A stretch of 64,000 nt of DNA, from assembly GCA_035578155.1 (NCBI GenBank), contig JAPWDM010000003.1:19618916-19682915 (forward strand). The letters run 5' to 3'. Positions 18,547 to 48,038 of the stretch are shown piece after piece. Within the stretch, counting starts at the first letter, position 1, and every line of letters starts with the position of its first letter. Source of the stretch: Brachynemurus nebulosus. Lineage: Eukaryota; Arthropoda; Insecta; Neuroptera; Myrmeleontidae. A program made the position numbers and the translations under genes. The notes under the pieces are model-generated. The model made no database searches. It was not told the DNA's origin and saw only the letters and a program-made list of their open reading frames with translations.

Positions 18547-18705
18547 AATTGACCTAGTGTTTGAAAAATTATCAAATTGGATCGGCTGGTACTCGAACCC
18601 GGATCTCTTGGTTGCTAGCCAAGCGCCTTATCAACTAGGCCACCGACCGCTTGTTCGTGTGCCATTCAAATCCGATAATCAATCATTTCAAACACTATGT
18701 CAATT
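18547..18705. repeat. Small inverted repeat enclosing a tRNA-like sequence
   Basis: AATTGACCTAGTGTTTGAAA near 18547 is the inverse of TTTCAAACACTATGTCAATT near 18686-18705. The 159-bp interval contains the tRNA-like sequence. It may be a SINE-related or tRNA-carrying foldback unit. Confidence 0.55.
18579..18648 (-). tRNA. tRNA-like sequence, anticodon AGC (Ala), probably a pseudogene or SINE head
   Basis: Read on the minus strand it starts GGTCGGTGGCCTAGTTGATA, which holds an A-box match (TGGCCTAGTTGA), and it contains GGGTTCGAGTACC, a B-box match. The anticodon arm is perfect: CTTGG, a 7-base loop with T33 and AGC at 34-36, then CCAAG. The T stem and acceptor stem pair poorly, so it is more likely a degraded tRNA or tRNA-derived SINE head than a working gene. 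RNA polymerase III promoter elements appear intact. Confidence 0.5.
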
Positions 18706-20088: not shown

Positions 20089-20802
20089 TGTACACGCCTA
20101 AATGGCTCTTGTACAAATGCCCCTTTTTGTAAACTAAATTTGCCGCTGGTTCATAAGCAATTAATAAAAATGTAACAAACGAAAATAACAAAGCATAAGG
20201 CTAATAATATAATTGTATAAGTTATATGAGCAAAATTTTATTACTCACCAGTTGATATAGTAAATAGTTAATATGTGCGTAATTACAATAATCAGGTGGT
20301 AAAACATAGGATAAAAGGAAAAAGGTTACCTGATTTTGTTGATTATTGTATTGACTGAATATTTTTTCTCGTCCATTCACTTGAACTTGGTTATTGCGTG
20401 CAGTTACAAGCGATCCAAACAAAAGATAAATTTAAGCACAGTTTTAAAGCAACAAAGCAATAGCACAATTTTAAATTAACGAAAGCAATATTTAGCACTA
20501 TTTTAAAGTAACAAAGCAATATTTAGCACAATTTTAAAGCAACAAATAAACCGAAAAAAATAGCAATCAATTTTTAACATACAAAAGTCGAACTTCGAAA
20601 AATGCATACTGCATACTGCTGTTATTGAAAAAAAGCAGACAAAAAAATATCAATTCAAAAAAAACTTGCACAAACGTGTAATACGCTTTATGTGTGTACT
20701 ACAATAAAAACAAATATTAAAATTTTAAATTTAGGTATACAGTGTGCTGTATACCGGGTGCACGAAATACAATTAAAAATTAATTAAGTAAAGGCCTAAC
20801 CA
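20089..20802 (-). repeat. 3' LTR of the BEL/Pao element
   Basis: 714 bp, minus-strand order TGGTTAGGCC to GGCGTGTACA. By eye it is identical to the other LTR. It contains about four direct repeats of a roughly 30-bp TTTAGCACAATTTTAAAGCA-like unit (20428-20545) and a perfect palindrome-like GTATACAG/CTGTATAC near 20733-20755. Short open frames inside it are not considered genes. Confidence 0.95.
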
Positions 20803-20981: not shown

Positions 20982-23900
20982 TTATTGAGTAGGCAATGGG
21001 CACAGCCTTACGACTGGCCGTTTGTAAGTTCCAGCCTTAGTTCGCACATCTGCGACTCTAACGATACCGTCATTACCAGGATACACCTTTTCGATGACCC
21101 CTAACGGCCAATGAAGGACCGGGCAATTATCTTGGCGAATAATAACTAAGGTACCGACTTCAACCGGGTGTGAAGGCGAGTTCCATTTCTGGCGTAGTTG
21201 CAAATCGTGCAAGTATTCTACACGCCACCTATGCCAGAAAGATTGAACTAAGCTGTCAAGTAAACGTTTTCTGTCTAAGAGACTAGGCTTTACCGAGCTC
21301 AAATCTATGCTAGGTAAGTACTGAAGTGGTGATAGCGTTAAAAAATGCGCTGGAGTTAGTGGTAAGGGTTCGGATGGATCCGAACTAAGCCAACAAAGTG
21401 GCCGCGAGTTTAAGAGGGCTTCAATTTGCACTAAAACTGTGTTCAACTCCTCATACGTCAAGATTTGAGAACCTATAGCCTTATTGAGATGACATTTAAT
21501 TGCTTTAACATTACTCTCCCAGATACCGGAGAAATGAGGACTTTGAGGGGGATGCAATTTCCACTCAATCTTCCGCTCAAGAAGTTCAGCTTGTATTGAC
21601 TGATTGTGCTCCTTAGAGTGCAAAAGTTGGTAGAGCGCATCCAACTCGTTCTTCGCTCCAATAAAATTTGTACCGCAATCGGACACCATAGTCTTGCACA
21701 TACCTCGCCTTGCTAAAAACCGTTTGAATGCCCCTAGAAATGTCGAGGTGGAAAGATCCGAAGCTAACTCCAAATGTAATGCTTTCGTAGCGAAACACAC
21801 GAAAACACATAAATAAGCCTTTTGACTCTTAATTCCACGTCGTCTACCCATTGTAACGGAATACGGACCAGCGTAATCGACGCCCGTAACTAGAAAAGGC
21901 TTTGCTTCTGAAACGCGTAGGGCAGGCAGATTACCCATCATAGGAGATGTAGCTTGGGGCCGGAAACGAAAACAGTAATTACATTTTTTTAAACGATGGC
22001 GTACAGCATTACGACCCGACAAAATCCAGTATTTATGTCTCAGAATAGACAAAACCAAATGTGGCCCTGTGTGCAAATTTCGACGATGACAATAATCTAT
22101 AAGCAAATTTACGAAATGATGAGATTTTGGAAGTAACAAAGGGTGTATGTGATCAAAATCTAAATTTGAATTTTTCAAACGACCACCTACTCTAATCAAA
22201 CCGTCCTTAAGAAATGGAGCTAATGACCGTAATCTTGGGGAGCACAACTGGTTCTTCTCTAGCAATTCAAATTCCTGGAAAAAATACTGTCTTTGAACCG
22301 CCTTAACAAGCGTTAGCGTAGCATTTTCTAAATCTGCAGACGAAATGTCACCAACAGATGTAATTATTTTACAAAAGCGCAAAACATAAACCGTAGCTCT
22401 CAGCAATTTCGGTAACGAAGAGCATCGATCTATCAACGATAGGAGTGGACTTTCATCAGGAGCCCGAACTACCAAAGACGTAATTCTTTTCTCAGGAATA
22501 TCAACATTCTCTGTATTAATAACGCTAATTGGCCAAAACGATGGTTCTTGCAATAACCATTCTGGACCATGTATCCATGCAGAATTATTGACTAACTGTG
22601 ACGGTGTCAAGCCTCTCGATAGACAATCACTAATATTCTCCTTCCCCGCTATATGATACCAATGCCGACAATCAATCAGCTCTTGAATTTTGGCTACCCT
22701 ATTAGCGACAAAGGTAGCCCATTTGTGAGGTGGCGCCGAAATCCAGCATAACGCCACTGTAGAATCGGAAAGGGCAAATATCTGATCAAATTTTAAATAC
22801 GGGCTATATGTTTGTATTATAAAATTTAGCACCTTAGCCAGCAAATAAGCAGCCAGTAATTCCAATCTCGGGATCGATAATGTTTTCATAGGCGCAACCT
22901 TTGTTTTAGAGCAAATCAAGCGAACCAAAGTATCGCCATTAGGAGCTGTAGTACGTAAATACACTACAGCGCCATAAGAAGCCAAACACGAATCAGCAAA
23001 ACCGATAAGTGAAGTACGATAATTTTCACAAAAACCTATGTGCCTAGGAACGTAAAAACCTTTAAGAAGTGGAAATTCGGTTTTAATTCGTTGCCACTGA
23101 CTGACAACGTCCAAAGGCGGGGTATCATCCCAATCTAAATTGAGTTCCCACAACTGTTTAATAAGTAATTTTAAAAGCAATGTGAATGGTGCCAAAAACC
23201 CGAGCGGGTCAAAAAGCCGAGCCACCGTAGAAAGTACGTTTCGCTTCGTACAATCTTGAGGAATTAAACGCACCTGAAATATAAAGCGATCAGTATGTGG
23301 TTGCCATTGCAATCCCAATATTTTTAAGCAATCTGTTTCAAAATTAACAAGTTTGGGACTATGTAAATGTTGGGGTATTTCTTCTAGTAATGAATCCGAA
23401 TTGACAGCCCACTTGACTAATTCGAATTGCCCAGAATGAAACAACTGAATAAGTTCAGTATAAGCAATTTTAGCCCGATCCAAATCGGGCACGCTACAAA
23501 CTAAATCGTCCATGTAAAAGCATCTTTTTACAATTTCTGCTGCAAATGGATAGTTACCACCCTCATCCAACGCCAACTGTTGCAAGGTTCGCAAAGCTAA
23601 AAACGGAGACGATCTAACACCAAATGTGACAGTATTAAGCTCATAAATATTAACTTGCTGGTTACTAGAGAAACGCCAAAGTATTCTCTGGAAACGCCTA
23701 TGATCAGGATGAATTTTTATTTGCAAATACATTTGCTTAATATCTGCTGTAAACGCAATTTTATACAAGCGAAAATTCAAAAACACCTCTACAACATCTG
23801 CTTGCAATTTCGGGCCTGTGTGGAGAATATCGTTCAAGGAAACAAACGAAGTTGTTTTCGCACTAGCATCGAATACACACCTCAAAGGAGTGCTGGTACT

Positions 23901-26117
23901 ATCTAATTTCATAACACCGTGATGAGGAATAAAATAGCCTTTTGTAATTATTTCAGAGTCGCTGACTCTTGTCATATAACCTTTATCCAAATATTCCTGC
24001 AAAACAGAGCTATATTGCAATTTAAATTCAGGAAATTTCTCGAATTTTCGTTCTAACCATAGCAATCGTCGAAGTGCAGTTGAATAAGAATCTCCTAATA
24101 CTTCAGGATTCTGTTTAAATGGCAAAACTGTTTGATATCGACCCGAAGATTCACGAGTAATGGTGGTAGCATAAATTTCCTCGCACTCCATATCCTCTGG
24201 TTTGCTGAATTGTTTGGTTGGTATATCCTCAAGTTCCCAAAACTTAGACACCAAATTTTCAAGCGAAGTATCGACAGTCGTGAAAAAACTCTGCAAATCC
24301 TCCGAATTAACGACAGCTGGAACTGCACCCATAATGACGTAGCCCAGACTGGTTTCAACTGCAACAGGAGAATTATTCGACCCAAAAATTTTATTTTTTC
24401 CAAGCAAAATCGGAAATAGCTCAGCACCAATTATACCATCGATGTCACCTGGTGTACGAAAAGAGTCGTCGGCTAAAGGAAGATTTAAAAATTCCGATAG
24501 GGAATCAGTTCTCAGTTTCACATCTGGTAATTTATCTGTAACCTTGTCTACCAGTAAAACATTTAACGAATACTGACATTGTGGGTTGAAACGCGACGAT
24601 ATAACCAAACAAGATAAACCTTTAACTGTATTTCCAGTGGTGCCAAGTCCTTTGACCACTGAATTACAATTTCTAATTTCTAAATTTAGTCGCTTAGCAC
24701 ATTCGATAGTAAGAAAATTAGCCTGGCTCCCAGAGTCTAATAACAAACGAATTTTAGTTTTTACACCAAAAATATTGTGTGCGTTTACTATAGCCGTTGA
24801 TAATAAAACCGTCAATTTACGGGACAAAACTGTATTTGTAGCAGTAGAACAAAGAGCCGTTGTATTTTGGGGTGTGGTGTCTGAATCATTTTGATGTGAC
24901 GTGTCTAATTCAACATTTGAATTAGCATTCGCCTGTTGATTATTTGCACTAATGCTGAAACTTGAGTTATGAGAGAGAGGAATTTTAGAATAATGTAATA
25001 ACGAATGGTGTTTTTTCCCGCAATGTCGGCACGTAAATTTTGAACGACATTCTACAACCTTATGGTTACCTAAGCAATTTAAGCACAAGGATTTTTCTTT
25101 TGCAATTTTAAAACGCTGCGATGCGTTTTTTTCCAAAAATTTGGAGCATTTCAAAATAAAGTGTGCGGATCGGCACAATGCGCATTTGTCTTTCGGGGTT
25201 TGTATTACAAATGAGTGAGTAGACGTTCTATTTTTCGGCACTGAGGTAGTTGCCTTTCCCGTAGTAAATGTGGAAATTTTGGCCTGCTCTTTGACAAAGT
25301 CCAATACCTCCTTGTAAGTAGGAATTGAGGATTTTCTTCGAGAATTTTCGAATAATTTGTTTGCTTCAGGATCCAATTTCGACAAAAATAAATAGGCTAA
25401 CATATAATCTGCTAAATCCTGAATTTCTAATTTTTTCAAAGCTTGACACGCCGTGTCAAATTGTTCCAATAAATTATTTAATGACTGCGCATTTGTATTT
25501 TGAGCTGGTTTTAATGCTAAAATTTGCTCAAAATAATTATTTGCTAAGATTCTAGGGTCCTGGTATTTTTCAACAAGTGTTTGCCAAATTATTTCATAAT
25601 TCGACCCGATAGGGGGTAAGCCCGAACAGACAGACAGTGCCTTGCCACTCAATTTTCCTATCAAATAATGCATTTTATCAGTGTCTGATAGCATATTATT
25701 TTCATGAATTCGTGTACGAAAACACTCATAGAATACCGGCCAATTAGACATCGAACCCGAAAAACTGGGTAAATCCAGCTTGGGTAGTTTTGGCTGTGCA
25801 TCAACCATAGTATTAGTTGCAGTATGTTTCGACAGAACCTTTTCTGAAATAGCCAAAATGTGGCAGTAAATTTGATCAACCGCTTCTAATTCATGAAAAT
25901 CTGGAACCGCTTCTTTATTTAATTCCAATTTTACATCGTTAATTGCGTCAACAATTTCGTAAAATGCAGCTTTAGTTTCTTCTAATGTTTTAATGCGAAT
26001 TTTGAAATTTTCTAACTGTATTGGATTGTCTATTTTTTTACCACAATCCAGTAAATTTTGCAATCGAAGAAAATATTGTTGCTTTTTTGCAGTTAATTTT
26101 TTTAACTTTTGTTCCAT
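20982..26117 (-). CDS. BEL/Pao Gag-Pol polyprotein, intact (1,711 aa)
   Basis: One uninterrupted frame starting MEQKLKKL. Order of domains: Lys/Glu-rich coiled-coil-like N-terminus (about 1-60); a DUF1759-type Gag segment (about 109-250, PKLDLPSFSG); zinc-binding Cys/His clusters (about 311-375, CALC, CLNC, CRHC); aspartic protease with LLLDSGSQANFL (Asp near 461); reverse transcriptase with TADIKQMY (Asp near 791) and the active site YMDD (about 868); RNase H-like region with FADSCLA (about 1040) and DSTVALC (about 1117); integrase zinc-binding HTGPH...CNYC (about 1350-1390); integrase core with VDYAGPY (about 1412), VSDCGTNF (about 1477) and GIWESN (Glu near 1533); C-terminal DUF5641-type segment. 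Every catalytic motif I looked for is present. Gag and Pol are fused in one frame, as usual for BEL/Pao. It would supply capsid, protease, reverse transcription and integration functions. Confidence 0.95.
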   Translation of the reverse strand: MEQKLKKLTAKKQQYFLRLQNLLDCGKKIDNPIQLENFKIRIKTLEETKAAFYEIVDAINDVKLELNKEAVPDFHELEAVDQIYCHILAISEKVLSKHTATNTMVDAQPKLPKLDLPSFSGSMSNWPVFYECFRTRIHENNMLSDTDKMHYLIGKLSGKALSVCSGLPPIGSNYEIIWQTLVEKYQDPRILANNYFEQILALKPAQNTNAQSLNNLLEQFDTACQALKKLEIQDLADYMLAYLFLSKLDPEANKLFENSRRKSSIPTYKEVLDFVKEQAKISTFTTGKATTSVPKNRTSTHSFVIQTPKDKCALCRSAHFILKCSKFLEKNASQRFKIAKEKSLCLNCLGNHKVVECRSKFTCRHCGKKHHSLLHYSKIPLSHNSSFSISANNQQANANSNVELDTSHQNDSDTTPQNTTALCSTATNTVLSRKLTVLLSTAIVNAHNIFGVKTKIRLLLDSGSQANFLTIECAKRLNLEIRNCNSVVKGLGTTGNTVKGLSCLVISSRFNPQCQYSLNVLLVDKVTDKLPDVKLRTDSLSEFLNLPLADDSFRTPGDIDGIIGAELFPILLGKNKIFGSNNSPVAVETSLGYVIMGAVPAVVNSEDLQSFFTTVDTSLENLVSKFWELEDIPTKQFSKPEDMECEEIYATTITRESSGRYQTVLPFKQNPEVLGDSYSTALRRLLWLERKFEKFPEFKLQYSSVLQEYLDKGYMTRVSDSEIITKGYFIPHHGVMKLDSTSTPLRCVFDASAKTTSFVSLNDILHTGPKLQADVVEVFLNFRLYKIAFTADIKQMYLQIKIHPDHRRFQRILWRFSSNQQVNIYELNTVTFGVRSSPFLALRTLQQLALDEGGNYPFAAEIVKRCFYMDDLVCSVPDLDRAKIAYTELIQLFHSGQFELVKWAVNSDSLLEEIPQHLHSPKLVNFETDCLKILGLQWQPHTDRFIFQVRLIPQDCTKRNVLSTVARLFDPLGFLAPFTLLLKLLIKQLWELNLDWDDTPPLDVVSQWQRIKTEFPLLKGFYVPRHIGFCENYRTSLIGFADSCLASYGAVVYLRTTAPNGDTLVRLICSKTKVAPMKTLSIPRLELLAAYLLAKVLNFIIQTYSPYLKFDQIFALSDSTVALCWISAPPHKWATFVANRVAKIQELIDCRHWYHIAGKENISDCLSRGLTPSQLVNNSAWIHGPEWLLQEPSFWPISVINTENVDIPEKRITSLVVRAPDESPLLSLIDRCSSLPKLLRATVYVLRFCKIITSVGDISSADLENATLTLVKAVQRQYFFQEFELLEKNQLCSPRLRSLAPFLKDGLIRVGGRLKNSNLDFDHIHPLLLPKSHHFVNLLIDYCHRRNLHTGPHLVLSILRHKYWILSGRNAVRHRLKKCNYCFRFRPQATSPMMGNLPALRVSEAKPFLVTGVDYAGPYSVTMGRRRGIKSQKAYLCVFVCFATKALHLELASDLSTSTFLGAFKRFLARRGMCKTMVSDCGTNFIGAKNELDALYQLLHSKEHNQSIQAELLERKIEWKLHPPQSPHFSGIWESNVKAIKCHLNKAIGSQILTYEELNTVLVQIEALLNSRPLCWLSSDPSEPLPLTPAHFLTLSPLQYLPSIDLSSVKPSLLDRKRLLDSLVQSFWHRWRVEYLHDLQLRQKWNSPSHPVEVGTLVIIRQDNCPVLHWPLGVIEKVYPGNDGIVRVADVRTKAGTYKRPVVRLCPLPTQ

Positions 26118-26384
26118 TTTGTTAAAATCAAAATGGAAACTTTTGTAAACTGTACACTAAGCAAGATATAACGAGTGTAAAATTGTAATTATAAATACGC
26201 GCCAACTACTTATTATGCAATACTTTTATTAAATGCAACCGCGTGCGTTGATATGGTAAAACTTTCAAACAAATGTACTGTACGTAATGAAATTCGACTT
26301 TTGCCAGTTATACCTAAGCATAAATAAGCCTAAACTTACGCAAAATCAAAAAACCAATCCGGTTCGAATGGCCAACAAAAGGAA

Positions 26385-27098
26385 TGTACACGCCTAAATG
26401 GCTCTTGTACAAATGCCCCTTTTTGTAAACTAAATTTGCCGCTGGTTCATAAGCAATTAATAAAAATGTAACAAACGAAAATAACAAAGCATAAGGCTAA
26501 TAATATAATTGTATAAGTTATATGAGCAAAATTTTATTACTCACCAGTTGATATAGTAAATAGTTAATATGTGCGTAATTACAATAATCAGGTGGTAAAA
26601 CATAGGATAAAAGGAAAAAGGTTACCTGATTTTGTTGATTATTGTATTGACTGAATATTTTTTCTCGTCCATTCACTTGAACTTGGTTATTGCGTGCAGT
26701 TACAAGCGATCCAAACAAAAGATAAATTTAAGCACAGTTTTAAAGCAACAAAGCAATAGCACAATTTTAAATTAACGAAAGCAATATTTAGCACTATTTT
26801 AAAGTAACAAAGCAATATTTAGCACAATTTTAAAGCAACAAATAAACCGAAAAAAATAGCAATCAATTTTTAACATACAAAAGTCGAACTTCGAAAAATG
26901 CATACTGCATACTGCTGTTATTGAAAAAAAGCAGACAAAAAAATATCAATTCAAAAAAAACTTGCACAAACGTGTAATACGCTTTATGTGTGTACTACAA
27001 TAAAAACAAATATTAAAATTTTAAATTTAGGTATACAGTGTGCTGTATACCGGGTGCACGAAATACAATTAAAAATTAATTAAGTAAAGGCCTAACCA
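26385..27098 (-). repeat. 5' LTR of the BEL/Pao element
   Basis: 714 bp, identical by eye to the 3' LTR. It should carry the promoter and start of the genomic RNA. The leader between this LTR and the ATG at 26117 is about 270 bp. I could not define the primer-binding site: TTGGCCATTCGAACC follows about 9 bases after the LTR, but its match to a tRNA 3' end is not convincing. Confidence 0.95.

Positions 27099-28068: not shown

Positions 28069-28142
<74 letters not shown>
28069..28142. repeat. (AAT)n microsatellite, 5' target of the Dong/R4-like copy
   Basis: About 74 bp of ATA/AAT repeat directly abutting the 5'-truncated retroelement. A second (AAT)n tract lies at that element's 3' end, as expected for insertion into TAA repeats. 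Confidence 0.95.
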
Positions 28143-28900
28143 CACGTAAACTTTCTTTCACTTGGGCTTTCTTGAGAGCTAATGGACTTAAATCGGAAAC
28201 GGAGGACTTTATCACTGCAGCTCAAGATGGAGTGTGGAACACCTTAACACACCAAAAATATGTGATGGGTAATAAAGGGGTTTCGAGTACCTCGTGTCGG
28301 GCATGCAAAGCATACCCGGAAACCTTAATGCACCTGACTTCAGGCTGTTCTTATTATGCTAAATCCACCTATATCCATCGCCATAATGCAGCGTTGCGTG
28401 TGCTTTATTTTTATCTTCGTCATCATTACGAAGTTGACAAAACACCAGTCTTGCCCTACGATCCTGCGGAAGTAGAATCCTTTGTTGCCAACCAAAAGTG
28501 CAAGATCTTTTGGAACATGCCGGTTGCAACTACCAGGCAATTGAGCGCTAATAAGCCTGATGTTGTGCTCCAAGATTTAACATCTCAGACTATGTATGTT
28601 ATCGAGTTCTCTGCTCCGGCGGAAACTAACATAGTCGAAAAGGAGGAGCAAAAAAGGATTAAATATCAAGATCTAATACTCGAGCTGCGACAACTGTACC
28701 CGGGCTATACGGTCCACTTGGTCGTACTTATAATCGGATGTCTGGGGGGTATGCATAACTCCTTTGTGCGCAATCTTAACATCATTCCGGCTTGTAGATC
28801 TCACGCCAACATGTTAGCGGCGTCAATGCAAAAAGCAGTTATTATCGGGACGCTCCGCACGCTTCGGTCGCACGAGACGACTTTTTCCGGGAGTTCATGA
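28142..28900 (+). CDS. C-terminal part of a Dong/R4-like ORF: zinc knuckle and restriction-like endonuclease
   Basis: About 252 codons are open from the microsatellite junction to TGA; there is no native start because the 5' end is lost. Early residues include FTWAFLRANGLKSETEDF, a region that in this clade follows the reverse transcriptase. A zinc knuckle follows (C-x2-C-x8-H-x4-C, from CRAC near codon 52), then a YIHRHN motif. The restriction-like endonuclease signature is present: KPD (28553) followed by VIEF, with Glu at 28604-28606. That nuclease nicks target DNA to prime reverse transcription. No frameshift or internal stop is visible, so the copy is young or has been spared decay. Family placement rests on motif order and on the TAA target; R2 is less likely because the site is not 28S rDNA. 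Confidence 0.8.
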
Positions 28901-29155
28901 ACACCTTTGAACCCCATGCCCCGTTTAGAGCGGGTCCTCGAACATCCATTGGACCTGCCCTCGAATCTCCCACTGTTATGGTTTCGCAGCGAGGTTCGGG
29001 GATTTATTAGGTAGGGAAGACCAGGAAGGGGATGCTGTATGACGGACATTACGTACCTGACTTTGAAGTACCTGACCTGGTACGCTGCACGGACACTTTT
29101 TCCTCCGCCTGGGGGTTTTTTGAAGTGCAGTCGCGTTTCTTTCGTTAAATTCTCA

Positions 29156-29157
<2 letters not shown>
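28142..29157 (+). mobile_element. 5'-truncated Dong/R4-like non-LTR retrotransposon
   Basis: The last part of the ORF (28142-28900) plus a 3' UTR of about 257 bp that ends TTCGTTAAATTCTCAAA and passes into (TAA)n. (AAT)n lies at both ends. Bombyx Dong, of the R4 clade, is known to insert in TAA repeats, which matches this setting. The reverse transcriptase domain is missing because of 5' truncation, the usual outcome of target-primed reverse transcription. Confidence 0.8.

Positions 29158-29206
<49 letters not shown>
29155..29206. repeat. (TAA)n tract between retroelement copies
   Basis: About 50 bp of pure TAA/AAT. It is both the tail of the Dong/R4-like copy and the 5' junction of the next element. 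Confidence 0.95.
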
Positions 29207-29280
29207 TGCCCGCTGTTGGCGATGCCGCCGGGTGCTGCTGACCGCGCCATCCACCGGCAGCAGTACCCCAATTTTAACTA
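29207..29280 (+). mobile_element. Structured TAA-targeted element, 5'-truncated copy 1
   Basis: Only the 3' terminal module is present: GGCGATGCCGCC, the stem GGGTGCTGCTG...CAGCAGTACCC, then CCAATTTTAA and an A-rich/(TAA)n tail to 29306. It matches the 3' ends of the next five copies. Confidence 0.8.
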
Positions 29281-29306
29281 AAAAAAAAAAAAAAAATAAT
29301 AATAAT

Positions 29307-29386
29307 GCCGGGCATAAATCCAACCCCTCGTCCTCGTCGTGCTCGGCGGTAACTGCTAGCTGGCTAGCAGGCTAACGGGGCTATGG
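29307..29386 (+). ncRNA. HDV-like self-cleaving ribozyme candidate, copy A
   Basis: Elements fall in the order required for the nested double pseudoknot. P1 is GCCGGGC (29307-29313) with GCTCGGC (29341-29347); P2 is CCCC (29324-29327) with GGGG (29377-29380), extended by CCA/TGG; P3/L3 contains TCCTCGT; P1.1 could form from GG after P1 and CC in L3; P4 is CTGCTAG/CTAGCAG (29353-29370). J4/2 is GCTAAC, with C29372 in the place of the catalytic cytosine. P3 is weak in this copy. P1 begins on the first base after the AAT tract, where cleavage would generate the RNA 5' end. HDV-like ribozymes at this position are established for R2 and related non-LTR elements. Activity is inferred. Confidence 0.65.
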
Positions 29387-29475
29387 TTAGTTAATAAATA
29401 AGACAACACGAATTCATTTTGAACACATTTCCGATTGTTACTGTTTTTCGTCCCTTTTGTGTTTTTTTTTCTGCC

Positions 29476-30070
29476 ATTGGAGGTCCTTGGGGCCACCGTT
29501 GGTGTTGTTATGACCCCCACTGTGCTCCTGGGCAGTTTTTGGACCCCCAAGGTTACAGTGGGGTTTCTGTGATAAATAAACTGTGATGCTCAGTCTGTGA
29601 TGTCTTTATCTTCTTGTTATTGCTATTTTGTTGTGTTTATATTTCTGCTAGCGGAGGCTCTCAGAGTCTCCAAAGGTGTTTTGTAACACCATTTTACTTG
29701 TGGGTGGCTTTGCATCCCCTCGAGTGCAATGGAATGCTGTGATATTGTCTGTGATATTGTTATTGTATTCTTGTCTTTGTTACATTTGTCTTTGTTCTTT
29801 TTGCTAGCGGGGACTCTTGAAGTCTCCAATAGTGTTGTTAAAACTCCATTGTACTTGTGGGTGATTTTGGGACCCACGAGTGCAATGGAACTTTGTGATA
29901 TCTATTATCTGTGATATTGTTGTTATTCTTTTGCTGTTACGGCTTTGTTTTGTTGCTGAGTTTTCCTTTTTCTTCGCTAGCGAGGGCTCTTGGAGTCTCC
30001 AATAGTGTTGTTTAAATTCCGTTGTACTGGTGAGTGTTTTTAGGCCCACACGAGTGCAGCGGAAATATGT
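29476..30070 (+). repeat. Tandem hairpin-forming repeats in copy A, unit about 170 bp
   Basis: Three clear units start at GCTAGCGGAGGCTC (about 29647), GCTAGCGGGGACTC (about 29804) and GCTAGCGAGGGCTC (about 29977), with a weaker fourth before them near 29476. Each contains a small GAGTCTCC hairpin and a larger stem. In the second unit the larger stem is CCATTGTACTTGTGGGT pairing with ACCCACGAGTGCAATGG, 17 pairs including G-U. In the third unit the outer stem is CCGTTG/CAGCGG, changed on both sides but still paired. Confidence 0.65.
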
Positions 30071-30510
30071 AATGTTATGCCGTAGTAGGTCTGTTATTAT
30101 GGCCTTACTGCGGTATCGCTTTAATCCCTTATTGCGTCACTGATTGGCCAGTGGCTTCTCAGTGGCGTAATAAGTTCTCTCTGTGATATCTGTGATGAGT
30201 CTCTAGCCATATATTTTTTGAGAAATTTCTAGTCGGTTTCTTCCACTCCGGGGCCCTTTACTCCTCGGAGGGAGTTTCATCGTTGGTTTTCGGTCCTTGG
30301 TGGCCGGACGTTCTGGCTGGTGCTTAGCGTGCCGCCACTAAGGACTGTCTGCTCGTTTTTGAAGCCCTGGGATGGCAGGGCTCATCGGTGAATTTTATCA
30401 TGTGTATGTTTGTCCGTTGTCTATTGCATTTATGTGTTCCTGTCTTTATGTGTCGTTTTTATCAGTTTTTCCCGTTTTGGCGGCGCATGCCCGTCGATGG
30501 CGATGCCGCC

Positions 30511-30549
30511 GGACACTGCTGACCGCGCCATCCACCGGCAGCAGTGTCC
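30511..30549 (+). ncRNA. 3' terminal stem-loop of copy A
   Basis: GGACACTGCTG (30511-30521) pairs perfectly over 11 bp with CAGCAGTGTCC (30539-30549). Other copies in this array have GGGTGCTGCTG with CAGCAGTACCC at the same place. Three adjacent pairs differ on both strands while pairing is kept, which is evidence that the RNA fold matters. A likely role is recognition by the reverse transcriptase. Confidence 0.7.
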
Positions 30550-30570
30550 CAATTTTAACTAAAAAAAAAA

Positions 30571-30574
30571 AATA

Positions 30575-30640
<66 letters not shown>
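30571..30640. repeat. (AAT)n tract between copies A and B
   Basis: About 65-70 bp of AAT following an A-run. It is both the 3' tail of copy A and the 5' target of copy B, or the reverse, depending on insertion order. Confidence 0.95.
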
Positions 30641-30641
<1 letters not shown>

Positions 30642-30725
30642 CTGGGCTAAAATCCAACCTTCACGTCCCCGTTCGTGCCCGGCGGGCAACTGTTAGCTTC
30701 GGCTAGCAGGCTGACGGAGCTCTGG
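30641..30725 (+). ncRNA. HDV-like self-cleaving ribozyme candidate, copy B
   Basis: P1 is GCTGGGC (30641-30647) with GCCCGGC (30677-30683). P2 is CTTC (30659-30662) with GGAG (30716-30719), extended by CCA/TGG. P3 is ACG/CGT closing the L3 loop TCCCCGTT. GGGCAAC follows P1, as in the HDV ribozymes. P4 is an 8-bp stem CTGTTAGC/GCTAGCAG closed by a TTCG tetraloop (30690-30709). J4/2 is GCTGAC, with C30711 at the catalytic position. P1 again starts at the first base after the AAT tract. Differences from copy A in P1, P2 and P4 keep pairing. This is the better-formed of the two candidates. Confidence 0.72.
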
Positions 30726-32136
30726 TACCGTGTTTCGACAAGGATGATCGTGTGGAGGGGACGATATCGTATCCCCCGAGTGAGTGTTATGCCTGCGTCA
30801 GCTTGAGCTTCATTAATAGTACCTTCACCGGAAGGTAGTATTAATGAAGATACTACCTTCACCGGAAGGTAGTATCTTCGGAGTCCGACGATACCGTTCG
30901 GATGTGTCGAAAAGGTGATATTGCGTCTGTGATTTATGTAAAAATTGTGATCTGTGTCTGTGATAGTTGTTATGCCACCTTGGGTTCTCTTGCCTGCGGT
31001 GGTACTTTTTAATTGTTACTCCTACTGTGATGTTTCCCTGGTCTTGTTCTTGTCATTTTGATGGGTAGGAATGCGGCTCTCGACGCATTCGTTCTCATCG
31101 GCCACACATACGAATCGACGTCTGCCCGAACAGCTTGAGCGAGCTCGCCTAGTAAAGAGACGTCGTCGTCCCTCGTACGGATGCGTTCGTGGGCGTTGAT
31201 ATGGCGGCTTCCGCCCCGTCGAAGTGATACGAACACAGGTCAGATGTTGGCTTTGTGATACTCTGTGGCATTGTCCCGTTCTCTGTAGCCTCGACTCGGA
31301 CGAACGTGGCCTAGTCATCGTACCGGTCTCCCGTGTAAGTTGACCCCGACATCTGACAGAACGGCACATGTACCCAGTAATCAGTTATCTGACAAAACAG
31401 TACATGTTGCTCAGTAATCACATGTCACTGTCCCTACACGTGTGAGTTCCTAGGTGTTGACGAAGCCATTTCGGAATTGTTGAGACTATGGGGAGCGGAA
31501 TCGTGCCACAGAGCAAGAAATTTTTTAAAATCTGTGATATTGTTGTTTTTATTTTTTAATAAGATTGTTTTAATCTGTTGTGCTTTAACGATGTACCACT
31601 GAGGGCCTTTTCCACCCGAGGTGGTACATCATCTTTTTATTCTTATCTGTGATTTTTTGTTGTGCCGCTGTGGGCTTGCTGTTATGGCCCTTCAGCGGTT
31701 TTGTTTTTAACTACTTAGTGCGGCATTGGTCGGCCTGTGGCTCCCCAGTGACGTAATAAGATTTTGTAATATTGTTTGTGATAAATTTTTTGAGTGTTTT
31801 ATAGTCAGTTTTCTCCACTCCGAGGCCCTTTACACCTCGGAGTTTCATCGTTGGTTTTCAGACCTTGGTGGCCAGGCGCTCTGGCTATCACTTAGTGTGC
31901 CGCAACCGGGGACTGTTCACTCTTTGTGAAGCCCTGGGATGGCTTCACAAAGAAGCCATCGTTGAATTTTATTATGTGTATGTTTGTCCTTTGTCTATTG
32001 CATTTATGTGTTCCTGTCTTTATGTGTTGTTTTTATCGTTTTTCCTCGTTTTGGCGGCGCATGCCCATAGATTGCGATGCCGCCGGGTGCTGCTGATCGC
32101 ACTATCCACCGGCAGCAGTACCCCAATTATAATTTT
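30641..32136 (+). mobile_element. Structured TAA-targeted non-coding retroelement, full-length-like copy B
   Basis: Starts with the ribozyme-like fold (30641-30725) and ends with the same 3' module as copy A (from about 31660 to 32136), followed by an A-rich/(AAT)n tail to 32171. The middle differs from copy A and carries its own stems: a 19-bp stem with one mismatch, CTTCATTAATA... (30809-30849), beside a perfect 12-bp GATACTACCTTC/GAAGGTAGTATC (about 30849-30876); a GGTCAGATGTTGG/CCGACATCTGAC pair (about 31233 and 31349); GATGTACCACT/AGGTGGTACATC (31590-31630); and a CCGCTG...CAGCGG stem (about 31665-31699). No long reading frame has protein-like features. GC content is well above the surroundings. 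Confidence 0.75.
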
Positions 32137-32171
32137 AAAAAAAAATAAAATAAAAAAAAAATAATAATAAT

Positions 32172-32263
32172 GCTCTCGTTTCGGCGGCGCATGCCCTTTG
32201 TAGGCGATGCCGCCGGGTGCTGCTGACCGCGCAATCCAACGGCAGCAGTATCCCAATTTTAAG
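32172..32263 (+). mobile_element. Structured TAA-targeted element, 5'-truncated copy C
   Basis: Begins inside the 3' module (CTCGTTTCGGCGGCGCATGC) and ends CCAATTTTAA before another (AAT)n tail (to 32290). The 3' stem is GGGTGCTGCTG/CAGCAGTATCCC, with a G-U wobble in place of one pair. Confidence 0.75.
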
Positions 32264-32290
32264 TAAAATAATAATAATAATAATAATAAT

Positions 32291-32490
32291 AGCCCTGGGA
32301 TGGCAGGGCTCATCGCTGGTTTTTATTATGTGTATGTTTGTCCGTTGTCTAGTGCATTTATGTGTCCCTGTCTTTACGTGTTGTTTTTATCTATATTTTT
32401 CGTTTCGGCGGCGCATGCCCTTAGTTGGCGATGCCGCCGGGTGCTGCTGACCGCGCCATCCACCGGCAGCAGTACCCCAATTTTAATTTA
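32291..32490 (+). mobile_element. Structured TAA-targeted element, 5'-truncated copy D
   Basis: Starts exactly at the AGCCCTG/CAGGGCT hairpin seen at 30363-30382 in copy A, continues through TGTGTATGTTTGTCCGTTGT, and ends with the 3' stem and CCAATTTTAA, then an A-rich/(AAT)n tail. Confidence 0.75.
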
Positions 32491-32527
32491 AAAAAAAATA
32501 AATAATAATAATAATAATAATAATAAT

Positions 32528-32562
32528 CCGCGCCATCCACCGGCAGCAGTACCCTAATTTTA
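32528..32562 (+). mobile_element. Structured TAA-targeted element, 35-bp terminal fragment E
   Basis: Only CCGCGCCATCCACCGGCAGC through the CTAATTTTAA end is left, between two A/T-rich tails. A copy this short shows that integration can abort almost at once after priming. Confidence 0.65.
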
Positions 32563-32587
32563 ATAAAAAAAAAATAAAAATAATAAA

Positions 32588-35413
32588 GAAATTTCGCATA
32601 ATCGTAACAAAATAAAAATTTTACTGAAAATTGAGCGGCACTAGATAATTAAAATATTTTAATTACTATTGGAGAATTTAAAAATATTATAGACAAAAAG
32701 TCAGCAATAGATTTTAGGACTGTGATTAAATTTCAGAATAGTTTAAGTAACAGTAATGACCTTGATCAACTGTTCTGTTAAAAATTAAATAGAGAGGAAA
32801 TGTTTTAGCAATATGTATTATGAATAAAAACACTACCAAAATTATTAACCTTTCAAAATTTAGAAGCTGTTAATTCTAGCAAACTGATTCCTATTTCTTA
32901 CCACTTTTTGGCTGTCAGAATTACCATCCATTAAGCAAACATATAAAATCTAATATATAGGTATACTTTTAGGATTGTGAAAATGAGAAATCTGTTGACG
33001 GCGCTTCGTCTATTAGAAAGCTTTTTTTTTATTCTAAATTGTCAAAATTTTAAAATTAATTTGAATGTATGGTAGTAATTTACCTAAAATGTTAGAAATA
33101 GTGTATTAATGACTAGGTAAAGAAAAAAAAGTATTATTTAATACGTCAGAAAAACAACTGTCTTCGCTGGTTGCATTTCCAAACCGCATAGTCTCAGTAA
33201 TGAAATGTCATCCTTGGCAGTAAAACTATATTCTTTTATGCTTGATTATCAAAATATACTATTAAAAACAAGATACAATTTTGTGTCCAAAAACAAACTT
33301 GGTTACTTTGAGGAGAAGATCTTTTATTTTCTTAAATTAGGAAATAATTTTTTGTAAGTGTGAGATTAAAATATATATTTTAGTCCGTCATAATAGGGAA
33401 GAAAATGTCACTTTAAAGTGTCAAGTGGCAATTTAAATAACATTTAAATAATTTTTTCTACTCCTACTATTAAAAGTAACATTTTGTGCACGGCTAACTA
33501 TATGTAAAAATTAACAATTGCCTACACTGTGCGGAAATACAGTGGGAAATTATTTCCCACGCATTAATATAATAAAGAAGTAGGCTACTACGTTAGTTTA
33601 ATATATAATATATAGAAATAATACTAAAAATATACATATATATGTATTATCCACCAACTTCGAGAAGAAAGTTGCTGGCCATAAAATTTTAAAAATTATG
33701 ATTGGATCTTATTAATAAAGGACAACGAATATGGCAAATCGGATAAATTCATCTTTGTCTAGCTTACCTAATTTCCAAAGTAGGATTTACATACAAAAAA
33801 AAAAAAATCGTGCAGAAATGAAATACATTCAAAAATTGATGTTTAAAGTTTTTAAAACAAATTTTTGGAGAATAATAAGAAATAATTAATAAAATAAATT
33901 TGTACACATACATACAATTTGTACAATACATTTGACACTTAAGTGGCATAAATTAAAATTTAACCATAAATTTAAAAATAAACACAAAACAGGAACAAAA
34001 ATTGATTTATTGGAATTAAATATACATTCTTTTCTGTATCTGGTTAAATATTTATATTTGAATTAAAAAATGTAGCTTAAAGGTAAGTAGAATTAAGACA
34101 GAATAATTAGCACATTTAAATCGAAATATATTTTAAGATTAACTGAAAAATCAAAATACAAAATCGTAGCAAATAGTTACCGTAGTGACTGTAATTTTAG
34201 AGCAGTTAAGAACAATGTAATGCCTGGCAACAGATACCCCATTTTATTTTTGCTAATCGATCACATTATCATATCGAAAACCACAATATAAAGAAAAAAA
34301 AACACACAACATCCATTCATGCCAACAACTCAATTTTATTATTAGGTTTATTACTTATACAAATTATCGGCATATTACAATTATTTCACCTATACTGAAA
34401 TTTGATGGAACGTGTTTCGTGTTCGAGTTTACGCATTCAGTTTTATAAAAAAAAATATGGGAAAGTAGAAAATTATGATTTTGTACATACTTTTTTTATC
34501 TTACATGTACTCACGTAGGAACTTTAAAAACGATGTTTAACTAAATTCACTAAATACATATTTTGCTCGAGTGTAAAACTGACTTGTAAAATTTTATTGC
34601 CCTTATTGTCAACTCATATTTGCTGTATTATATGTTGATTATTTATTATTGTTTCCATAGTTTCAAAGTATGCTTTGGCATAAATTTGAACATCTTAGCA
34701 TTGACATTATAAATTTAAAAAATTTTTACTATACTTATTTAAATTTTATTTTAATTATTTATGTTAAATTTTACGAAAAAAAATGTGCCCGTAGAAAAAG
34801 TATAGCGTAAAATACCTGGGAAAAGCTTATTTCTCACTCATACGAATTTGAACTCATATTCGTGAGAAATAAGCATCTTTTCCCACTTATTGTACAATAT
34901 ACTATATTTCTTAAATTATATAATTCTAAATTATTCAGAATTACAAAAAACAACATTTATACGCTATAAAACTACAGTGTTGCTTTTGATCCCTTGTATA
35001 AGTTGTTGTCCTCAGCAGGTCTTTACCGTTCTTCTGGTAACGAATTTCACACTCGGGATCAAAACTTACACTCTGATCCCTTCTTATTTAATATACTACG
35101 TTAGCATTATTATTAAGAGAAATCATTTCATCAATCATCAAAAAATCGGTAAATTATGTAACAATCAAAATAATGTTACGGTAAATTTTAACCTCTCCCT
35201 AACTTTATATTAGCTTCCGATGTTAAAAACATTAAAAACAATTAAAATTTCGAATATTTTTGTTCATAAAATCAATTAAAATAAACCGATTACTTCCTGT
35301 TTTCAAAATGAAAATTGAATATTTTCTTTTAATTTACTAAATCTACTTCGTAAAACAAAACAATTTACTCGATTAACTTATACATTGTTTATGTATTCTC
35401 CGAAAACTTAAGC
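32588..35413. other. AT-rich intergenic sequence, no gene seen
   Basis: About 2.8 kb with no recognisable gene. It contains one strong hairpin (34817-34885, TGGGAAAA...TTTTCCCA, with the arms sharing GCTTATTTCTCAC and its inverse). No RNA gene recognised. Confidence 0.5.
34817..34885. repeat. Imperfect hairpin of about 69 bp
   Basis: TGGGAAAAGCTTATTTCTCAC is inverted as GTGAGAAATAAGCATCTTTTCCCA, with ACGAAT/ATTCGT closer to the loop. It could be a precursor-like hairpin or the end of a foldback element; no further support. Confidence 0.4.
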
Positions 35414-45992: not shown

Positions 45993-48038
45993 TTAAAATT
46001 TTAAATCTACTAAAAGATGAAAACTTCTTGGACCATATCTTGAAACTGGAAATGCTGTTTGAAATAATTTAAAAAAATGTTCGCTCAATTTGATATCTTC
46101 AACGCATTCGCTGTAACGATCATCGAAAACACATCGTATCAAAGGCGGATCAATTTTCGCCGGTAAATTGCTAATAAACGATAAAAGGCAATGACATTGC
46201 CAAGGATTCTCATCAATTAATACAATTTCGACCGATGTCGATGCAAATGTATCCGGACTTAGAAATGTTAATCGATTTTTTATCAGACTCACGCGTGTTA
46301 AATTCAAATATAAAAATGTGTTAATACTAATATATTTCAATCGGTTGTCCGTTAAATCGACCAATCGCAAGTTGTATAAAGATTTGAATAATTCATCTGG
46401 TAATATTTCCAATTGATTCCCTTGCAATCCAAGGAAATATAAATTTCGTAAATTATTAAATATTCTTGACGGAAGCGTGGTTATCCGATTCGAAATGAGT
46501 GACAACATGGTTAATTGAGTTAAATTTGAAAAAATTCCCTCTGGTAATTCAGTTATGTGGTTCTCTGTTAAGTCTAACATCTCTAATTTCGACAAACGAC
46601 TAAATGTGCCCGCCTCTAATGTTCGAATACTGTTGCTACTGAGATATAATTCTTTCAGCTGCTGTAAAACTAAAAACGTTTGTTTTTTTAGAACTGTTAA
46701 ACGATTATTGTTCAAAACAAGTCGATCGATTTTTCGCGATTGACTAAAATCTAACCGAAAAGTTTCTTCAGATATTTCGTTGATTTCACAGTGACTTAAA
46801 TCCAAATAACGTAAAGATATCATATTTTTAAAGTAGTTCGCCAAATTTTGTACATTAAATTTATTTTCGGATACAATTAACGTTTCTAAGTATTTTAAAT
46901 GATCAAATGCTGTTTTTGGAAGTTCCGTCAGTCCGTTAAATTGCACATTTAAATGGCGTAATTTTTTATTCGATGCAAAAACATCATTTTGGATTTCATC
47001 CAGTTCATTTCGATTTAATAATAACATTTCTAAATTGATCATATTTTTAAGGAAATTGTTGTCGATTTTTGATATCTGGTTAGTGGTTAAATGTAAAACA
47101 ATCAAGTTTCGCGCAACATTTGCTGGTAAGTATGGCAGCGCTTGTAATTGGCAAGATTTCAGAGCTAAGTATTTTAAATTCGTTAAGTATATGAAAGAAT
47201 TATTTGTTAAACTTATTCCATAATTATTTGATAAATCGAGAATTTCTAAATTTGTTAAATGATAGAATGTACTATTTGGGACTTGCTCGATCAAATTTCC
47301 AGCTAACGATAATGCCACTAATTTACTAGCACTATTTTTTTGATTAGATTTTTTATCTGGTTTATTTATGAATTTAAATCGATGCAACGCCGCACGTTTT
47401 CTATTATATTTTGCAATCAATACTTCCAAATTTGGAAGACAATCGTACTGATAAAAACAACTGTCAGATCTGATTGTAACACCATTGTATCTAATATCCA
47501 GATACTTTAGATTACGCAGTTCATGTACGTTATTCAAAATAAAATCTAAATTTTCAATATTGTTTCTATTTAAATCTAAAACTTTCAATTTTGTTAACGG
47601 CGAAAATTGAAGCGGTGGTACTGTTACTAATTCATTTTTAGATAAATCTAACACTTCCAAATTACGCAGTGGTTTAAACGCCAACATGTATATGTTCCAT
47701 AATCCATTTTCTCGAAGGATCAAATTAACTAACGACTCTAATGATGTAAATATATCTGCTGGTATTACATCAATTTTACATTTTGATAAATTTAATTGTT
47801 TTAATTTTGTTAAATTTAAAAACGCGTTTGATGTGATCGTTTGAAGGTTTTTGTTTTCACTTAAATCCAAGGAAATCAAATGATTCAAGTTGCGGAACGC
47901 ATTGTTGTTGATTGTTGATAACTGGGTACCGGTTATTCGAAGATATTCAGAATTCTCTCTCGCCGAAATTCTAAGGTCATTTTCATTGAGAGAACGTCGG
48001 TGAGAATCAATTACAATTTGATAGTATGTTCCATTTTC
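45993..48038 (-). CDS. Secreted leucine-rich-repeat protein, main (3') exon
   Basis: A long exon that opens after a minus-strand acceptor TTCTTGTAG (AG at 48040-48039) with GAA AAT GGA in phase 0 and runs to TAA at 45993, 681 codons. Joined to the exon at 53795-53968 it gives about 739 residues. It has roughly 20-22 LRRs of the typical 24-residue extracellular type (LxxLxLxxNxIxxIPxxxFxxLxx), an irregular insert after the sixth repeat (SDSCFYQYDCLPNL, then a basic stretch), and a C-terminal LRR cap with NPWQCHC followed by two more cysteines. No transmembrane helix is visible, so it is probably secreted. Such proteins bind ligands or partner cells in insects, but I cannot assign a named gene. 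Codon use is strongly AT-biased, like the background. Confidence 0.85.
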   Translation of the reverse strand, partial: ENGTYYQIVIDSHRRSLNENDLRISARENSEYLRITGTQLSTINNNAFRNLNHLISLDLSENKNLQTITSNAFLNLTKLKQLNLSKCKIDVIPADIFTSLESLVNLILRENGLWNIYMLAFKPLRNLEVLDLSKNELVTVPPLQFSPLTKLKVLDLNRNNIENLDFILNNVHELRNLKYLDIRYNGVTIRSDSCFYQYDCLPNLEVLIAKYNRKRAALHRFKFINKPDKKSNQKNSASKLVALSLAGNLIEQVPNSTFYHLTNLEILDLSNNYGISLTNNSFIYLTNLKYLALKSCQLQALPYLPANVARNLIVLHLTTNQISKIDNNFLKNMINLEMLLLNRNELDEIQNDVFASNKKLRHLNVQFNGLTELPKTAFDHLKYLETLIVSENKFNVQNLANYFKNMISLRYLDLSHCEINEISEETFRLDFSQSRKIDRLVLNNNRLTVLKKQTFLVLQQLKELYLSSNSIRTLEAGTFSRLSKLEMLDLTENHITELPEGIFSNLTQLTMLSLISNRITTLPSRIFNNLRNLYFLGLQGNQLEILPDELFKSLYNLRLVDLTDNRLKYISINTFLYLNLTRVSLIKNRLTFLSPDTFASTSVEIVLIDENPWQCHCLLSFISNLPAKIDPPLIRCVFDDRYSECVEDIKLSEHFFKLFQTAFPVSRYGPRSFHLLVDLKF

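Follow-up and report, generated by a model that had tools for sequence, protein, structure and literature searches.

Organisation of the locus

The window, by which we mean the whole stretch of 64,000 nucleotides that was analysed, contains a chain of insertions running from ~28069 to 32590, all on the plus strand and joined to one another by TAA tracts (Table 1). The chain is made up of a 5′-truncated RLE-type (Dong-like) LINE, two copies (A and B) of a non-coding element, and four 5′-truncated relatives (F1 to F4). The protein piece encoded by the RLE-type LINE is 62% identical to Leptinotarsa sequences, and this fragment gives no Pfam family above cut-off and no match to a PDB chain. Copies A and B resemble each other only in their first ~86 nt (80% identity), in their last ~500 nt (78%) and in one 26-base match. 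No reading frame is found in the element, as an earlier note made from the letters of the window had stated; the longest plus-strand open reading frame starting with ATG is 47 aa in copy B and 67 aa in copy A.

The middle part of A and B contains strong hairpins, with local folding z values down to −6.4, and differs between subtypes. The heptamer CTGTGAT is repeated in this part, eight times in A and five times in B, against ~0.15 expected from base composition. Two further hairpins close the 3′ end. Among 42 distinct rows, which include copy A of the window and from which two of 44 (L036 and L006) were excluded for a one-base deletion, 97.3% of 924 helix cells are paired, compared with 27-74% when the partners are slid. 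Two pairs are changed on both sides (13 cells), and the covariation score is reached by none of 500 column shuffles. These figures support selection on the RNA but fall short of proof, since the relatedness of copies can also exceed such shuffles.

Elsewhere in the window a BEL/Pao LTR retrotransposon is represented by a 1724-aa open frame (20982-26156, minus strand) with Peptidase_A17, DUF1759 and RVT_1 domains, and tandem repeats of 31 bases with the same consensus flank this frame (20430-20546 and 26726-26842). A tRNA match lies at 18578-18649 on the minus strand (44.6 bits), and no other Rfam match in the window attains its gathering score. A 681-aa open frame (45993-48038, minus strand) resembles leucine-rich repeats as judged by eye.

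Table 1. Features of the insertion chain and of the predicted ribozyme (positions in the window)
Feature	Position	Strand	Remarks
RLE-type LINE, 5′-truncated	28143-29158	+	
F1, 5′-truncated relative with tail	29207-29306	+	
Non-coding element copy A and start of its A-rich tail	29307-30574	+	
HDV-like ribozyme, copy A	29307-29387	+	Rfam alignment, descriptor, shuffles
A 3′ part common to A and B	30073-30571 (B: 31658-32145)	+	78% identical
(AAT)22 tract separating copies A and B	30575-30640	+	
Non-coding element copy B and start of its A-rich tail	30641-32148	+	93% identical to the copy in locus L003
HDV-like ribozyme, copy B	30641-30725	+	predicted cleavage between 30640 and 30641; fold, descriptor, shuffles
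P1, 7 bp	30641-30647 with 30677-30683	+	96.4% of helix cells paired (20-copy alignment)
Outer P2, counted as 2 bp	30654-30655 with 30724-30725	+	
Inner P2, 4 bp	30659-30662 with 30716-30719	+	GGAG in copy B, GAGG in other B-type copies
P3, 3 bp	30663-30665 with 30674-30676	+	
L3	30666-30673	+	sequence UCCCCGUU
P4, 8 bp, TTCG loop	30690-30709	+	97.5% of helix cells paired (20-copy alignment)
J4/2, GCUGAC	30710-30715	+	G30710, C30711, A30714 and C30715 invariant in 27 distinct copies
Two 3′ terminal hairpins, copy B	32052-32129 (copy A: 30478-30555)	+	last 78 bases
F2, 5′-truncated relative	32172-32266	+	
F3, 5′-truncated relative	32292-32500	+	
F4, 5′-truncated relative	32528-32584	+	

An HDV-like ribozyme fold at the exact 5′ end of the element

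The first 85 nt of copy B form an HDV-like ribozyme fold that lies exactly at the 5′ end of the element, beginning with the first base 3′ of the AAT tract. The earlier note had placed helices P1 to P4 from 30641 in the order of a nested double pseudoknot, and its coordinates and parts are correct, including the lengths of P1 and P4, the TTCG tetraloop and the J4/2 sequence with C30711, which we take to be the place of the catalytic C. Of the P2 that it described as 4 bp plus 3, the inner 4 bp stand, but the outer part is counted here as two pairs. Both forms of the inner P2 strand are able to pair with CUUC. L3 of copy B is one base longer than that of copy A and than that of the Rfam model, and GGGCAA lies directly 3′ of P1. 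Copy A has a similar fold, which begins on the first base of that copy and has a P3 with one mismatch or gap.

A descriptor of HDV-like ribozymes, built from general HDV features after the sequence had been inspected, matches at 29307 and 30641 only on both strands of the 64 kb. None of 20,000 dinucleotide shuffles of copy A, and none of 20,000 of copy B, match this descriptor at the first base; when any of the first 40 starts is allowed, one shuffle of A and three of B (each of 20,000) do so. Both copies align end to end with Rfam family RF02682 (HDV-F-prausnitzii), in register from base 1, with scores of 24.3 and 22.9 bits against a gathering cut-off of 44 and an E value of 2.8 when scaled to the whole window. 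RF01787 (drz-agam-1) aligns weakly with copy A at 14.3 bits, below its gathering score, and gives no match at E≤10 among the 56 of 26,971 first-look candidates scored in the host genome; no HDV-like family reaches the Rfam gathering score in the window. As regards the covariance-model score by which the fold might be recognised, the in-register alignment to RF02682 was obtained, but the score is below threshold and the result is only suggestive.

Comparison of copies from the host genome gives a similarly two-sided picture. In 20 distinct copies 97.9% of 475 helix cells are paired, compared with 26-44% when the partners are slid, and one pair, in P2, is changed on both sides in five sequences. 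With further subtypes added, to 27 distinct copies, the value is 96.5% of 635 cells against 25-45% with slid partners; this larger alignment has no pair with a two-sided change, and the percentage paired is attained by 453 of 500 column shuffles as well. Variation within the ribozyme helices is mostly from G-C to G-U. Retention of the pairing is strong, whereas covariation is weak. The sub-threshold covariance score is in keeping with a chance fold in a GC-rich stretch, an explanation that we regard as extremely improbable and have rejected on the specificity of the descriptor in 64 kb and on the shuffle controls, in which two separate copies each gave none in 20,000; moreover, the fold starts exactly on the element boundary and is retained in 27 distinct copies.

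Copies of the element in the host genome

A search of the 960-Mb host genome with 300 bases from the 5′ end of copy B gave 898 candidates, of which 40 were scored. The 39 loci examined besides the window (L002-L040) contain 43 ribozyme-bearing copies, one of the examined copies ending early at a locus boundary; because of the query used, this sample is skewed to complete B-type 5′ ends. The alignment starts at ribozyme base 1 in 41 of the 43 copies and at base 3 in the remaining two (L012 and one in L013), and the DNA upstream differs widely from copy to copy. The exact 19-nt 5′ end GCYGGGCNWAAATCCAACC occurs 821 times in the host genome (control 0) and a looser 16-base core 1058 times (control 1). 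TAATAATAAT stands immediately before GCYGGGCNWAAATCC at 343 places (control 0); the ratio of 343 to 821, ~0.4, is approximate because the two patterns differ slightly. A query with the 5′ end of copy A gave 685 candidates (window included), and among the 40 places scored six are 100% identical over 114 bases and a further 17 over 103 bases. The many 5′ ends near-identical to that of copy A suggest that the element family has recently been active.

A TAA tract of five or more units adjoins 24 of the 43 copies and the other 19 lie elsewhere. Such tracts are favoured, not required. The description of the element as TAA-targeted in the earlier note holds as a preference, but we reject strict targeting in view of the 19 sites elsewhere, the poly(A) tail and the target duplications. 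The 3′ end of the element is CCAATTTTAATT or a near variant, followed by an A run and then by the duplication; the element thus has a tail of poly(A) rather than of (TAA)n. Both ends are present in 38 copies, 17 of which yield no measurable duplication because they lie in pure TAA. In the other 21 the commonest duplication is exactly 12 bp (seven copies, six of the duplications starting with AA). Lengths of 10-15 bp, these seven included, account for 14 copies, and the remaining seven have 1-8, 19 or 20 bp, several of the lengths being inflated by runs of A or TAA. Another retroelement-like 5′ end, starting ACGCCCTGTGGG, is found directly 3′ of TAA tracts at four loci (L005, L008, L067 and L070).

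Relationship to the LINEs of the host

Two host LINEs were compared with the element. The RLE LINE is represented by many copies with an open frame of 1225-1226 aa among the 150 of 2542 candidate places that were scored; those examined (loci L043-L072) are 96-98% alike and are located in TAA tracts. Local comparison of this LINE with A and B yields no E value better than 2.2, which is chance level, and its 5′ end has no HDV-like match by Rfam (E≤1) or by the descriptor. In this it differs from Dong of Bombyx, which does carry a ribozyme (PMC3774820, in excerpt).

These results bear on the view that an R4/Dong-type (RLE) LINE inserting into TAA repeats gave rise to the element as a non-autonomous derivative, whose ribozyme would be that of Dong. 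Bombyx Dong targets TAA, its ribozyme cuts the TAA junction in vitro, and TAAAATCC and ACC can be made out by eye both in copy B and among the first bases of Dong as a printed primer gives them (PMC3774820, in excerpt); AAAAUCC, however, is not specific to Dong, since it is also present in the RF01787 consensus. The occurrence of an RLE LINE with open frames in the same tracts would also fit such an origin. Nevertheless we consider it very unlikely: that LINE is unlike A and B beyond chance and lacks an HDV-like 5′ end, 19 of the 43 element copies are away from TAA tracts, and the 3′ part of the element belongs to an APE LINE. R2/Dong-type parentage is rejected because neither the 5′ nor the 3′ end is common to the element and the RLE LINE of the same tracts, and the R2-type setting in which the earlier note had placed the ribozyme is not borne out.

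The ~500 nt shared at the 3′ end of the element match the 3′ UTR of a LINE that encodes an APE endonuclease and has an open ORF2 of ~1228 aa. At locus L016 there is a LINE fragment whose C-terminal peptide and stop codon are followed by sequence that is 77.6% identical to part of the shared 3′ part. A hand comparison of two listings, in which 117 of 2843 and 150 of 1764 candidates were scored, pairs the same peptide with an APE domain at 20 places or more, the peptide lying 3462-3471 nt downstream; for 18 of the 20 the two listings agree on the length of the open frame (1228 or 1235 aa). The endonuclease domain is PF14529/PF03372 and has weak sequence matches to the LINE-1 and TRAS1 structures. 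In a copy on contig C1 (C1:77.22 Mb) the element 3′ end, with its A run and a TAA tract, is located ~4.5 kb downstream of the start of a 1228-aa frame, at the place expected for the end of the LINE; the comparison covers the frame start and the 3′ end.

One decayed copy of the LINE (L078/L080) provides a candidate source for the ribozyme as well. Here a TAA tract is followed by a ribozyme-like 5′ end (L078:32-124), and downstream of it by a CCHC peptide, for which zf-CCHC scores below its cut-off (E 0.0069), and then the APE domain, with ~2.2 kb between the ribozyme start and ORF2. This ribozyme-like sequence has a small extra hairpin (AGTC/GACT) within L3. A search with the 159-base 5′ end of this copy gave 1289 candidate places, of which 40 were scored, one being the copy itself; identity at the remaining places is 79-97%, some of the matches being partial. 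The ribozyme-start pattern was found within 3 kb upstream of none of 22 scored ORF2 places (C1 below 79.8 Mb), so that the ribozyme is seen on one decayed LINE copy only. The best reading of these sequences is that the element is a SIDE-like derivative of the APE-type LINE, as NARTc is of L1Tc.

Proposed mechanism and alternatives

We think it likely that the 85 nt at 30641-30725 are the 5′ ribozyme, with cleavage predicted, of a SIDE-like retroelement, non-coding and non-autonomous, that descends from the APE-endonuclease LINE of the host, and that the element works as follows. Read-through transcripts would be cut by the ribozyme at 30640/30641, leaving an RNA with base 1 of the element at its 5′ end and, towards its 3′ end, the structured 3′ UTR of the LINE and a poly(A) tail. 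The ORF2 protein of the LINE would nick DNA at sites starting with AA, many of them in TAA tracts, and would prime reverse transcription at the 3′ end of this RNA, copying as far as the ribozyme-made 5′ end. Such copying would yield full-length copies with a single start base and flanking duplications of ~12 bp. What we infer is that the RNA cuts itself, that transcripts read through into the element, that this LINE mobilises it in trans and that its ribozyme descends from the 5′ end of the LINE. Processing of read-through transcripts, together with the predicted self-cleavage, is a natural reading because base 1 is where the alignment starts in 41 of 43 copies, the two exceptions starting at base 3; mobilisation in trans is suggested by the shared 3′ part, the poly(A) tail and the target duplications. 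From what the sequence offers, this mechanism is probable, with a parentage that differs from that proposed in the earlier note.

A common 5′ base would also be expected if an internal promoter starting at base 1 fixed the 5′ end, the fold being a relic or an RNA structure that does not cut. The weak covariation and the sub-threshold Rfam score are in keeping with this explanation, and Pr77 of L1Tc is promoter and ribozyme at once (PMC4035085, in excerpt). It is nevertheless unlikely, given that in several subtypes the first base of the fold falls exactly on the element boundary, with J4/2 retained and with 96.5% of the helix cells paired. The head-to-tail arrangement of copies, in which every complete 5′ end bears a ribozyme, recalls retrozymes; in that case the ribozymes would cut head-to-tail copies to unit RNAs, which would then close into circles and spread in that form. 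Outside TAA tracts, however, the copies are single insertions with a poly(A) tail and short duplications, features that indicate a linear polyadenylated RNA, and spread by circles is highly improbable.

Within the proposed mechanism of a LINE-mobilised ribozyme element, arrays of the A-B type allow a further role, which we hold to be quite unlikely: the downstream ribozyme would also form the 3′ end of the upstream copy, a read-through transcript being cut at both junctions, and the resulting unit-length RNA would end in (UAA)n and be able to pair with a nicked TTA target. If this were true, ribozyme, tail and TAA tract together would constitute a self-feeding array, and microsatellites would serve as nurseries for the element.

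Comparison with known elements

HDV-like ribozymes that cut at the 5′ junction of the element have been reported for R4, Dong, baggins and L1Tc (PMC3774820, in excerpt). Short, internally deleted partners that carry the ribozyme are known for R2 (PMC3414825, in excerpt), and the APE-type L1Tc has a short ribozyme-bearing partner in NARTc (PMC4035085, in excerpt); the present family is therefore of an already known type, as far as these excerpts go. Less usual are the number of copies, their arrangement in arrays at TAA tracts and a long, hairpin-rich middle that varies between subtypes. The R2 SIDEs and R2/R1 hybrid SIDEs of Drosophila likewise combine a 5′ ribozyme with a LINE 3′ end, have no ORF and are presumed to be mobilised in trans (PMC3414825, in excerpt). 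In contrast to the Drosophila R2 SIDEs, the element described here is located outside the rDNA, its partner is an APE rather than an RLE LINE, and it has a poly(A) tail. With Dong, a member of the R4 clade in Bombyx mori, it has in common an HDV-like ribozyme at the junction of TAA and element and the use of TAA tracts as target (PMC3774820, in excerpt), but Dong encodes its own RLE protein, whereas the element is without an ORF, ends in poly(A), occupies many non-TAA sites and has a 3′ part that belongs to an APE LINE. The pairs L1Tc/NARTc and ingi/RIME of trypanosomatids, with their Pr77 HDV-like ribozyme, may offer a further parallel; the present host is an insect, and the element has a long hairpin-rich middle. 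No published account of the element was found among the titles and abstract openings of the open literature, which were covered in part.

The family adds an insect case of a non-coding passenger of an APE-type LINE that apparently possesses its own HDV-like ribozyme. The host genome contains 821 exact 5′ ends and many near-identical ones, and processing of the transcript, spread free of a promoter and mobilisation in trans become open to test in it. TAA tracts seem, from the sequences adjoining them, to be a landing site common to several unrelated retroelement families.
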